This document shows positions 42,802 through 63,068 of a DNA stretch of 64,000 bases, in pieces. The position numbers and the translations under genes are program-made. Under the pieces are notes generated by a model. The model was not told the DNA's origin and did no database searches. It saw only the letters and a program-made list of their open reading frames with translations. Within the stretch, counting starts at the first letter, position 1. Every line of letters starts with the position of its first letter. Source of the DNA: Nitrospirota bacterium (lineage in GTDB: Bacteria; Nitrospirota; Nitrospiria; Nitrospirales; Nitrospiraceae); the NCBI GenBank assembly GCA_016219645.1, contig JACRLR010000015.1, forward strand, positions 62,001-126,000, read 5' to 3'.

Positions 42802-45660
42802 ATGGAACCACGAAATGATGCGGTTGCCGTGAGGCCCTGGCACGCAATATCGGCCGACGCGCTGGCGCTGGACCTGCGCACACATCCCGAAGCCGGGCTT
42901 GGTGCGGACGAAGCCGGCCGTCGACAACAGAGTGAGGGGTTCAACGAACTGCCCGAAGCTCCCCCACCGTCACTGGTGAAGCTGTTTCTTTCTCAGTTCA
43001 CGAGCGTCATTGTCTGGGTGTTGATCGGGGCGGCGGTCATCTCCGGTCTCCTGGAAGACTGGCTCGATGCGGCGGCCATCCTGGCCATCGTGCTGCTCAA
43101 CGGAATTCTTGGATTTGTCCAGGAGTTTCGGGCTGAGCGATCGTTGGCGGCGCTGCGAAAAATGTCCGTGGCGACGGCCCGGGTCGTTCGCGACGGGATT
43201 GTGCTGTCGATTCCCGCACGGGAATTAGCGCGAGGGGATTTGATCCTCCTCGAAGCAGGCGACCGTATCCCTGCCGATGCCCGGCTGATCTACACGACGA
43301 ATTTCCAGACGCAGGAGGCCTCGCTGACCGGCGAATCGACGCCGGTTCAGAAGCATGCGGGCGTCATGGCCGGAACCGACGTCCCGCTCGCCGAGCGGAC
43401 GAACATGGCCTTTATGGGGACTATTGCGGTGTCCGGGAAAGCCAGGGCTCTTGTCGTCGCGACTGCTGTGCACACCGAGTTGGGGCGGGTCGCCGCGATG
43501 ATCCAGAAAGCCACGGAAGCTGAGCGGGCGGAAACTCCCTTGCAGCGCCGGCTTGAACAATTCGGCTATACGCTGCTGTGGCTGGCTCTGGCGGTTGTGA
43601 CCGTCGTGTTTGCGTTGGGCTATCTGCGGGGCGAGCCGGCTGTCCTGATGCTGTTGACGGCGGTGAGTCTGGCGGTGGCCGCTGTTCCGGAAGGGCTCCC
43701 CGCCGTCGTGACGATCACGCTGGCCCTGGGCGTCACCCGCATGGTGAAACGCCATGCTCTGATCCGCAAGCTGCCTGCGGTCGAAACACTCGGATCCGCC
43801 ACGGTCATCTGTTCCGACAAGACCGGCACGCTCACCAAGAACGAAATGACGGTGACGAGGTTGTTTGCTGGAGACCGGGTGTTCGAGGTGACGGGCGAAG
43901 GGTATGAGCCGATCGGCGAAATCCGTGAGGCGTTAGGCGTCAGGCGTGAAGGGACTTGGGAAGGCGGCGATGGTCAATTGTCATCGGTCACTGATCAATT
44001 GGACCACACTTCTGAGCATCCTTCACGCCTTACCCCTTACGCCTCACGCCTCACCTCTGGCGACCCCTTACGCCTCACGCCTCACGCCTCACGTCTGCCA
44101 TCAGGCTTGCGTGAGCTGCTGACGGCGGCAGTCCTTTGCAATGGTGCGACGCTGCGGCAGGAGGAGGGAACGTGGAAAATGTTGGGCGATCCGACGGAAG
44201 GGGCCTTGCTGGTTGCGGCGGCGAAAGCAGCGCTGACGATCGACAGATTCGCTTCGACCTATTGCTTTCTTGGAGAGGTGCCGTTTGATCCTGAGCGCAA
44301 GATGATGACGATCGTGCGGCAGACACCAGACGGTTCGGTCGCCTATGTCAAAGGCGCGCCGGATGTGTTGTTGCGGCACTGTACGCATCGGCTGGCCATG
44401 GACGGCACGACCGAACCGATCACAGAATCGATTCGTACCGCCATCCTCGATGCGAATGCATCGTTCGCGCATCAGGCGTTGCGTGTGCTGGCAATGGCCC
44501 ATCGGCGATTGGATGGGGAACCCAAGGTCTATCGGGCGCAAGACCTGGAGGACCGGCTGGTGTTTCTTGGGCTTGCGGCCATGAAAGACCCGCTGCGGCC
44601 GGAGGCGAAAGCCGCCGTCCAGGCCTGCCACGATGCCGGTATCAGGACCGTGATGATTACGGGAGATCATCAGGATACGGCGGTGGCGATTGCAGAAGAA
44701 CTCAGGGGGGTGAAGGAATCGATACGGTCGCTGTCCGGCATGGAACTCGATCGCTTGTCCGATGAAGAACTGGTCAAGACCGTGGACCAGGTGGCGGTCT
44801 ACGCGAGGGTTTCGGCGGAGCATAAGCTGCGTATCGTCAAAGCCTGGAAGGCGCAGGGCGCCATCGTGGCCATGACGGGGGACGGGGTGAACGATGCACC
44901 GGCAGTCAAAGCCGCGGATATCGGCGTCGCGATGGGGATAACCGGAACCGATGTCACGAAAGAGGCCGCCGACATGGTGGTGACGGACGATAATTTTGCC
45001 TCGATCGCCGCGGCCGTGGAAGAAGGTCGCGGCATCTTCGACAATATCCGCAAGACCATCTATTTTCTCTTGTCGTGCAATGTCAGCGAGGTGCTGGTCA
45101 TGTTATTTGCGACATTGATCGGGCTTCCGTTGCCCCTGTTGCCGATCCAAATTCTGTGGATGAATCTCGTGACGGACGGATTTCCTGCCCTGGCTCTGGC
45201 GGTGGATCCCAAGTCGCCCGATCTGATGAAGCAGCCGCCCCGCCGACCGGAGGCTCGGTTGTTGGACGGCGGCACACTCCTGGCTATCGGGGCGCAAGGG
45301 GTTATGTTGAGCGCGATCGCGTTGGGGGCATTCGCCTATAGCCTCTATGGTCTCCATCAAGAAGTCGAGCAGGCGAGGGCCGTTGCATTTACCGTGATGG
45401 TCGTCGCGCAATTGGTACATGCGTTCAACTGCCGAAGTGAACGATGGTCTCTGTTCCAAGTTGGTCTGTGGACCAATCGTCCACTCCTCTTGGCCTTTAC
45501 GCTCTCTCTTGGGACTCAGGTTGTCGTGCTCACCGTCCCAGCGGTCTCGACGATCTTCAAGGTTGTCCCGCTCCCGATTGAAGACTGGGCGCTGATGGGA
45601 GCGATGGGTCTGCTGCCGTTCGTAATCATGGAGGGAATCAAGTTGCTGCGGAGACCATGA
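42802..45660 (+). CDS. P-type ATPase, P2A (SERCA-like Ca) class
   Basis: A 952-residue pump with N-terminal cation ATPase domain, TGES, fourth-helix [18 protein letters not shown], phosphorylated aspartate near residue 339 ([11 protein letters not shown]), [17 protein letters not shown] and a C-terminal helix bundle. The AVPEGLP motif is that of Ca pumps, distinct from the pump at 6652. Between residues 376 and 433 the nucleotide-binding domain carries a serine, threonine and leucine rich insert encoded by intergenic-type repeats. It lies between the CaCA exchanger and the hydrogenase operon. Confidence 0.9.
43928..44100 (+). repeat. Heptameric repeat palindrome inserted in frame in a P-type ATPase
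   Basis: Within the ATPase coding region, GCGTTAGGCGTCAGGCGTGA (left) is complementary in pattern to the chain ACGCCTCACGCCTCACG (right). Between them lies GGTCAATTGTCATCGGTCAC, of the same type as the GGTCATT repeat at 25976. It adds about 50 residues while keeping the frame open. Other members of these families are intergenic. Confidence 0.8.
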
Positions 45661-46844: not shown

Positions 46845-47698
46845 ACGGCGTCGCAAATCGGCAGTCCCAGAACCCTTACGAGATCCAGCCGGCGACGATC
46901 GTCGAGAAGATCTCGGAGGCGGAGGACATCGAGACATTCCGTTTGCGCTTCATCAATCAGGCGACGCGGCGCGGGTTCCGGTTTGCGCCGGGACAATTCA
47001 ACATGGTCTATGCCTTCGGCGTGGGTGAAGTGGCGATTTCGATTGTCTCCGATCCCGGCCAGCCTGGACTGCTGGATCACACGATCCGGGTGATTGGGCG
47101 GGTCACGAAGGCGATCGGGCGCCTGAAGCCGGGTGATGTCTTGGGCCTCCGCGGGCCGTATGGGGTGGGGTGGCCGCTGGATGAAGCCCGCGACAAGGAT
47201 GTCATCATCGTGACCGGTGGGTTGGGTTGCGCACCGGTAGTCGGCGCCATTGAATACATCTTCCGGAGGCGCGATCAGTATGGTGCCGTCAAGATTTTGC
47301 ACGGGGTGAAGACCCCCCACGATCTGCTCTATCGCGCTCGGTTCGACGCCTGGCGACGGCATCCCAATACCGAGGTGTTGCTGACGAGCGACCAGCCGGA
47401 TAAGACCTGGGCTTACCACGTCGGCGTGGTGACGGACCTGTTTGAGCAGGTGTCGCTTGATCCGGCCAAGAGCATGGTCCTGATGTGCGGGCCGGAGATC
47501 ATGATGCGTTTGGGCGCGCCGATCTTGATGCGGCGCGGGATTCCGGCGACCGCGCTCTACGTGTCGCTCGAACGGCATATGGAGTGCGGTATCGGTTTGT
47601 GCGGCCATTGTCAGTTGGGGCCCTACTTTCTGTGCAAGGATGGTCCGGTCATGCGGTACGACCGGGCAGCGCCGTGGTTGGGACGAACAGGGGTGTAG
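46841..47698 (+). CDS. hyhG: Group 3b hydrogenase FAD/NAD(P)-binding subunit (gamma)
   Basis: A 285-residue reductase of the dihydroorotate dehydrogenase electron-transfer type: an FAD barrel (FRFAPGQFNMVYAFGVGEVA), a NAD(P)-binding fold starting DVIIVTGGLGCAPVVGAI, and a C-terminal [2Fe-2S] site in HMECGIGLCGHCQLG ending FLCKDGPV. It connects the iron-sulfur chain to NAD(P)H. The ATG at 46841 overlaps the previous stop. Confidence 0.92.
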   Translation: MNGVANRQSQNPYEIQPATIVEKISEAEDIETFRLRFINQATRRGFRFAPGQFNMVYAFGVGEVAISIVSDPGQPGLLDHTIRVIGRVTKAIGRLKPGDVLGLRGPYGVGWPLDEARDKDVIIVTGGLGCAPVVGAIEYIFRRRDQYGAVKILHGVKTPHDLLYRARFDAWRRHPNTEVLLTSDQPDKTWAYHVGVVTDLFEQVSLDPAKSMVLMCGPEIMMRLGAPILMRRGIPATALYVSLERHMECGIGLCGHCQLGPYFLCKDGPVMRYDRAAPWLGRTGV

Positions 47699-47855
47699 CT
47701 CGTGAAGCGTAAGGGGTGAGGGGTGGCGTGTTACAGAGGAAACGCGGCACGATGAATGATGAACGATGGATTTGTGGATCCAGCCATTCAGTACCCCGCG
47801 TGAAATGACGCCTAACTCCTGACGCCTCACGAGAAGGTCTGGACGAGCGAGACAT
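47699..47855. repeat. Heptameric repeats between hydrogenase genes
   Basis: GTGAAGCGTAAGGGGTGAGG at about 47702 and GACGCCTAACTCCTGACGCC near 47813 are inverted degenerate chains of 7-nt units related to those inside the ATPase at 43928. They interrupt an otherwise tight operon by 157 bases. No gene or promoter is seen. Confidence 0.7.
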
Positions 47856-62973: not shown

Positions 62974-63068
62974 GGTGAATCTCAGATCTCAGATCGCAGA
63001 TCTCACATGGCAGATCTCAGATAACGGAGGCGGATTGTACCTCTGAAATCTGAGATTTGCTATTTGCG
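62974..63068. repeat. Heptameric GATCTCA repeat array
   Basis: GATCTCAGATCGCAGATCTC and following units make a degenerate 7-nt tandem array, with an inverted part (CTGAAATCTGAGATTTGC) to its right. It lies between hsdR and the four-helix-bundle gene and contains no gene. Confidence 0.82.

Follow-up and report, generated by a model that had tools for sequence, protein, structure and literature searches.

In a 64,000-nucleotide stretch of DNA (the window) from a genome of 3.65 Mb in 71 contigs, whose closest named relatives are Nitrospira, the gene for a putative Ca-type P-ATPase carries an array of palindromic 7-nt repeats within its reading frame. This arrangement raises the questions of where the inserted DNA came from and how an otherwise intact pump accommodates it. 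The answer favored here, with a probability of about 0.7, is that hairpins of dispersed heptamers move time and again into a small number of disordered protein loops and are exchanged there, the only filters being reading frame and absence of stop codons.

The P-ATPase gene and the architecture of its insert

The protein encoded by the host gene, P0001 (Table 1), contained the Pfam domains Cation_ATPase_N, E1-E2_ATPase, Cation_ATPase, Hydrolase and Cation_ATPase_C, and its closest structures in the PDB were the Listeria pump lmo0841, followed by ATP2C1 and SERCA. The sequences DKTGTLT, TGES, and TGDGVND, which we take to be the catalytic motifs of P-ATPases, were all present, as a first-pass annotation of the window had claimed, and were also invariant columns of alignment A1. 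With these domains and motifs intact, P0001 is, as judged from its sequence, a Ca-type (P2A) P-ATPase with putative Ca specificity. An AlphaFold2 model based on 32 aligned sequences had moderate overall confidence (mean pLDDT 69.7). Residues 379–429 had pLDDT values below 50 and lacked secondary structure before residue 427; this segment was flanked by a strand ending at residue 376 and a helix starting at residue 427. The insert is therefore predicted to lie in a disordered loop at the surface of the ATP-binding domain, in agreement with its earlier placement in the nucleotide-binding domain.

Table 1. Positions in the window of the ATPase gene, the parts of its insert and an intergenic copy.
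Feature	Position	Strand	Basis or size
Putative Ca-type P-ATPase gene (P0001)	42802–45660	+	One open frame, 952 aa
In-frame palindromic heptamer element, residues ~375–433	43924–44100	+	Inverted repeat, 7-nt array, translation
Left (F) arm: GTGAGGC, GTTAGGC, GTCAGGC, GTGAAGG; read EALGVRRE	43925–43952	+	4 units
Spacer with nested GGTCAATTG...CAATTGGACC hairpin (43972–44004), second heptamer family	43953–44019	+	Read from sequence
Right (R) arm, first block, TCACGCC/TTACCCC units	44020–44054	+	5 units
Right (R) arm, second block, TTACGCC/TCACGCC units	44065–44092	+	4 units
Intergenic copy of the GTGAGGC palindrome (GTGAAGC/GTAAGGG arm ... TGACGCCTCACG arm)	47702–47830	+	Arms read

The arms of the insert formed an inverted repeat of 29 nt with 90% complementarity, in which 43924–43952 paired with 44020–44048, and Tandem Repeats Finder identified a 7-nt array at 44023–44093. 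A smaller GGTCAATTG/CAATTGGACC hairpin is nested inside the GTGAGGC palindrome, which makes the element composite. Its RNA fold had an energy of −85.9 kcal/mol (z = −7.0 relative to dinucleotide shuffles). The first-pass description of about 170 bases of palindromic 7-nt repeats that keep the frame was borne out by this array within an intact frame, and its estimate of roughly 50 added residues came close to the ~47 by which the loop exceeds that in outgroup phyla, where, as in short-loop paralogues, it measures 11–17 aa. An assembly artefact or frameshift was rejected because the reading frame runs through the insert and because similar inserts were seen in many Nitrospira genomes that had been assembled separately. 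A scan of 43700–44300 against Rfam yielded nothing at the gathering threshold. The combination of conserved core, terminal inverted repeats, and target-site duplication that defines a MITE was not found: the longest direct repeat flanking the insert was 6 bp (CGTGAG at 43924 and 44110), and its first copy belongs to the arm.

Since 7 and 3 share no factor, the heptapeptide encoded by a tandem 7-nt array does not depend on the frame, and the R arm (TCACGCC, translated as SRLTPHA) can therefore be read through in almost every frame. Consistent with this property, 20 of 23 R arrays with at least four units were open in two or three frames, and translation of the second R block of the insert gave PLRLTPHAS in one frame and, in the other two, peptides of the RLTPHAS type. 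Seven of 15 F arrays had no open frame and the other eight were open in one. Within the insert, both R blocks were open in all three frames and the F arm was open only in the frame that is used. Because no more than one frame of a left arm is open, such an arm must be short, must lie in phase, and must carry local changes. In the TGAGTTC family, the unit that would give an in-frame TGA was substituted in every row of alignment A2, the replacing letters in columns 25–30 being, by eye, ACGAGA, TTAAAA, CCAAAA, and similar.

Dispersed copies in the genome and in other proteins

A scan of the whole window at lags 4–14 detected 0, 0, 0, 3, 0, 1, 0, 0, 0, 0, and 1 arrays, respectively. Two of the three lag-7 arrays fell in the insert and the third at 62979–63022. 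The latter array consists of ATCTCAG units and lies upstream of a minus-strand ORF whose product, we assume, resembles a 23S rRNA-intervening/four-helix-bundle protein. In the intergenic copy within the window (Table 1), the F arm occupied 47702–47722 and the right arm lay near 47809–47830; the upstream ORF ends at 47698, and neighboring ORFs presumably resemble hydrogenase or sulfhydrogenase subunits.

In the source genome (G000), at least 48 matches to the insert were found, query included, a count that covers 40 of 100 candidates scored. In the 37 stretches holding the other matches, adjacent arms occurred in F-to-R order in 18 pairs, in R-to-F order in none, and in R-to-R order in one, with F–R spacers of 12–106 nt; in the P0001 insert, F likewise precedes R. 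The center of the insert (query positions 41–105) was covered by no other match in G000 except its own inverted match, which indicated that the arm pair, rather than a core, is dispersed; no conserved mobile core was found in this genome. With its 7-nt units arranged head to tail and dispersed through a single genome, the element belongs among the short tandem heptamer repeats.

These repeats had been described in the first pass as otherwise lying between genes. The intergenic copy and the genome-wide matches agreed with that description, but not every copy lies between genes: several further G000 genes hold copies in frame. Gene-level annotation, which covered part of the 37 stretches, located two in-frame copies in linkers of CheA (L141). 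Others lay in a HerA-like ATPase (L127), in a YbeY loop placed by alignment to 1oz9 (L132), and in CheB (L123), where the repeat occupies the linker that joins the receiver domain to the methylesterase domain. Arrays of GCCTCAC/TTCACGC units were also observed near the apparent N-termini of a pilin-like protein, a SCO1-cytochrome c protein, and an unknown protein (L118, L143, L154), whose true starts are unsure, so that these arrays may be 5' untranslated.

The linker of the HerA-like protein showed turnover similar to that of the ATPase loop described below. Among 17 sequences, several families were represented, and 15 linkers were palindromic relative to codon shuffles and 11 were 7-periodic. 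An outgroup linker (L199) was neither palindromic nor 7-periodic, yet equally long, so that a gain in length is shown for the ATPase only. Within this set (L127, L184–L200), a GGGGTAT-type family (L186, L193, L197, L198, L200) was palindromic and not clearly 7-periodic, as if decaying. When the ATPase and HerA loops of the same genome were compared by eye, their families were alike in three of seven genomes (G000, G004, G006) and unlike in G012, G013, G018, and G019; this comparison carries no weight in the reading favored here. For CheB, eight linkers were parsed from 16 loci, two of which (L155, L156) held clear GTNAGGC-type repeats; linker L161, from another Nitrospira, holds a different palindromic repeat, read CLSQSPLSEGGQRLSEGGQAP. 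CheA linkers 1 and 2 were parsed in 3 and 1 of 13 loci, respectively.

Family turnover at the ATPase loop

Loop sequences of ATPase homologues were cut from the loci of homologue searches, yielding 104 rows, 83 of them distinct. For the periodicity test 46 of these 83 were kept, the 37 dropped being either not Nitrospirales-like at the LCN anchor or devoid of the GY-x-P-x-G anchor (L024, L028, L060). Seven rows without the GDP motif were left out, including L012 and L041, which on later reading were one sequence of TGAGTGC type. Most Nitrospira loops were 21–63 aa long, with short ones of 3 (L060), 16 (L074), and 17 aa (L065, L070). Thirty-seven of the 46 Nitrospirales loops were 7-periodic (p < 0.01 relative to codon shuffles). 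A stricter scan found clear 7-nt arrays in 24 of 45 loops, and each of six control lags gave none in these 45. At a higher threshold, arrays remained in 10 of 45 loops (4,542 bases in total), as compared with eight in 434,627 bases of the same loci outside the listed loops; three of these eight were the loop itself in duplicate loci and two look like one place seen twice.

The loop families included GTGAGGC, TGAGTTC/TGAGTGC, GTGAAAC/TTTCACC, GGTCAAT (the main repeat in L018, L062, and L074), GTTATCC, and others, and peptides from different families were unrelated. In N. moscoviensis, the same ATPase loop holds a G-rich palindrome (L059, 5081–5173) read SPALPLEGGGEGGGED, and the genome of this species had zero matches to the four loops searched as described below. 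Loop L063 (4251–4409) contains more than one nested kind of repeat, including a GTCGAAGGG-type repeat. Alignment of orthologues, as proposed in the first-pass annotation, indicated that the insert is not peculiar to P0001. As the contrary case, that annotation had named orthologues that all carry an unrelated insert of the same length, which would make it an ordinary loop. Most Nitrospira indeed carry an insert, mostly of other heptamer families, but the lengths differ. Since the inserts differ in length as well as in family, the loop itself is variable, the difference lying in which dispersed repeat occupies it.

Four loops were each searched in nine genomes. The GTGAGGC loop of G000, with the matches at home given above, had 15, 6, 5, 5, 5, 3, 0, and 0 matches in the other eight. 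A GCACTCA loop (G028) had 11 matches at home vs. 0–4 elsewhere, and a GTTATCC-type loop (G033) two at home and none elsewhere. The GTGAAAC-type loop of G006 matched its own genome 10 times, G027, whose loop shares its family, 32 times, G036, which has no insert, 14 times, and G018, whose loop belongs to another family, 12 times. Three of the four loops were thus richest in their own genome, and the match between loop and genome is imperfect, the G006 case counting against it. A Y1 (REP-type) transposase was not favored as mover of the elements, as the numbers of matches to PF01797 (Y1 transposase; G000, 1; G006, 2; G018, 3; G027, 3; G028, 3; G033, 4; G035, 0; G036, 1; G061, 0) did not track repeat counts.

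A tree was built without the loop from 55 of 76 rows, 21 distant rows being left out. Family labels were assigned by the analyst from motif counts and were mixed in several rows (L043, L051, L053, L063, L071). This tree required 23 label changes, or 22 and 20 when branches below 80 and 95, respectively, were collapsed to soft polytomies; among the 33 rows labeled A–D, 11 and 10 family changes were counted, with a parsimony minimum of at least 10. Shuffled labels needed 25–34 changes as compared with 22 observed. Labels therefore follow the tree better than shuffles do, which indicated that some families were inherited rather than re-acquired. L001 and L010, neighbors in the tree whose proteins are 88% identical, carried unrelated loop families.

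Synonymous differences suggested a relative age for some of these loops. For L013–L016, pS was 0.07 in the loop vs. 0.50 and 0.68 in the flanks, and for L049–L055 it was 0.10 vs. 0.34 and 0.57. Several like-family pairs had loop pS below that of the flanks and pN similar to or above it. Such low-pS loops look younger than the surrounding genes and less constrained as protein; comparison of pS between loop and flanks gave no younger-loop signal in the pairs L055–L091 and L058–L082. Exchange of loops by recombination fits these values. Low loop pS may instead reflect homogenization of repeats, and low pS together with the conserved TGAGTTC stems could mean selection on the hairpin, against neutrality.

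Origin of the inserts and comparison with known systems

The favored reading builds on the repeat make-up of the insert, its dispersal, the preserved frame, family turnover at one site, the stop filter, and a second protein that behaves alike. The dispersed element consists of GTNAGGC units, a spacer, and GCCTNAC units, with one copy in frame in the P-ATPase loop. This loop would be a standing landing site across Nitrospira, at which elements drawn from the heptamer families dispersed in the respective lineage enter or replace one another, and loops may also pass between species through recombination of the gene. Only copies that are in frame and free of stops would persist, with purifying selection acting on frame and openness. 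Template switching or microhomology is suggested as the route of entry, in preference to a transposase, because neither a repeated core nor a target duplication was found and the Y1 transposase counts did not track the repeats. Exchange would involve homologous recombination. The added peptide would be tolerated because the loop is unstructured and far from the catalytic motifs, and is probably near-neutral.

An unlikely alternative is that the hairpin is kept as nucleic acid, with a strong mRNA stem, placed at a domain boundary or loop, that slows the ribosome or protects the message. Any palindromic family would then serve, so that families could interchange while the hairpin stays. The strong fold of the insert, the position of the CheA and CheB copies between domains, and the palindromic character of most HerA-like linkers and of 24 of 36 repeat-labeled ATPase loops (relative to codon shuffles) are in line with this idea, as is the TGAGTTC family, where 7 of 29 pairs had changed on both sides. 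However, the other 12 of the 36 loops (L018, L057, L061, L062, and others) were not significantly palindromic, the covariation term was small (−0.48 of −25.54 kcal/mol), and palindromes are expected anyway in elements that are palindromic between genes too. A broader proposal, which is doubtful, is that Nitrospira continually renews palindromic heptamers of any family at a few fixed linkers and loops (Ca-ATPase, HerA-like, CheA, CheB), the hairpin rather than the peptide targeting or keeping the element. If true, each of these proteins has a linker that is lineage-specific and exchangeable, being drawn from the repeats current in the genome.

Very little probability is given to the loop peptide being a selected regulatory or partner-binding module that diversified adaptively. 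Persistence of an insert in most Nitrospira would agree with such a role, as would its position: residue 434 of P0001 aligned with residue 408 of SERCA1a, and the loop just ahead of SERCA residue ~408 is, we presume, a regulator-binding region in SERCA2a, although the open-licence literature yielded no paper on that regulator motif. Against such a role, different families encode unrelated peptides, loop pN/pS exceeded that of the flanks, as under relaxed constraint, and the segment had low pLDDT. Least credible of all is an ordinary fast-evolving loop with heptamers made in place by replication slippage, unrelated to the dispersed repeats: loop sequence and length do vary and heptamers can expand by slippage, but the loop units correspond to repeats scattered through the respective genome, an inverted copy across a spacer is beyond slippage alone, the arms keep the F-to-R order found elsewhere in the genome (18 to 0), and the closely similar L001 and L010 proteins hold unrelated families.

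If dispersed hairpins do enter and exchange at these loops, Nitrospira would be a free-living lineage, represented by tens of related genomes, in which ‘non-coding’ repeats build protein segments repeatedly at one place. Source repeat, frame filter, and relative insert age are all readable there, and a natural series of loop variants is available in one pump. For annotators, heptamer palindromes within Nitrospira ORFs are not necessarily assembly errors.

No published report on heptamer palindromes of Nitrospira was found in the open-licence literature; N. moscoviensis appears in a REP table of a RepRanger paper. Among described systems, Rickettsia palindromic elements, intragenic REPs, and TAACTGA heptamers come nearest. 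The heptameric G-rich repeats of Xanthomonas and Nostoc are dispersed and mostly non-coding; unlike the Nitrospira arrays, they are of G-quadruplex type and under-represented in coding regions (PMC4692102). The enterobacterial elements RU-1, RU-2, and RU-3 are intergenic units that also occur in frame in genes, but are MITE-like units of 103–168 bp rather than heptamers (PMC2759123). The TAACTGA heptamers of Beggiatoaceae, Cyanobacteria, and Bacteroidetes are closer in build: they are tandem and mostly intergenic, with one orientation that stops all frames and another that is open and read LSVISYQ in ORFs (PMC4679880). The Nitrospira repeats share their 7-nt tandem units and the contrast between a stopped orientation and an open heptapeptide. 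TAACTGA repeats, however, are direct arrays of one heptamer that lie in ORFs mostly at protein ends (PMC4679880), whereas Nitrospira F and R arrays pair as a hairpin and fill internal loops.

The GTAG/CGTC REPs are mostly intergenic short palindromes, some of which lie inside ORFs, where clusters encode up to 43–82 residues, and in recB two Xanthomonas species have different REPs at roughly one position (PMC3733652), which sets a precedent for the filling of a single site by different repeats. The insert in P0001 differs from these REPs in its long tandem 7-nt arms, as compared with a REP stem of 5–13 bp, and carries no GTAG/CGTC tag at the foot of such a stem: GTAG and CTAC were absent from 43924–44097, and CGTC occurred at 43938 and 44092, within or at the end of arms.

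Rickettsia palindromic elements (RPEs), to which the first-pass annotation had likened the insert, are ~150-bp elements of ten families found in frame inside protein genes (PMC10969869). The analogy is sound in that the insert is a palindromic repeat dispersed in its own genome and lies in frame in an unstructured loop of an otherwise intact pump, and in-frame copies (ATPase, HerA-like, CheA, CheB, YbeY) coexist with intergenic ones, among them that at 47702–47830. As with RPEs, dispersed palindromes lie in frame in unrelated genes and add peptide while the gene is apparently alive (PMC10969869). The likeness does not extend to build, since the arms of the Nitrospira elements consist of heptamers in tandem, no core is repeated, and one site holds different families in different species. 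By analogy, with RPEs compared by description, the element thus acts like RPEs and intragenic REPs, a likeness in behavior that makes the question posed by RPEs, whether repeat DNA feeds new protein sequence and does so neutrally, testable.
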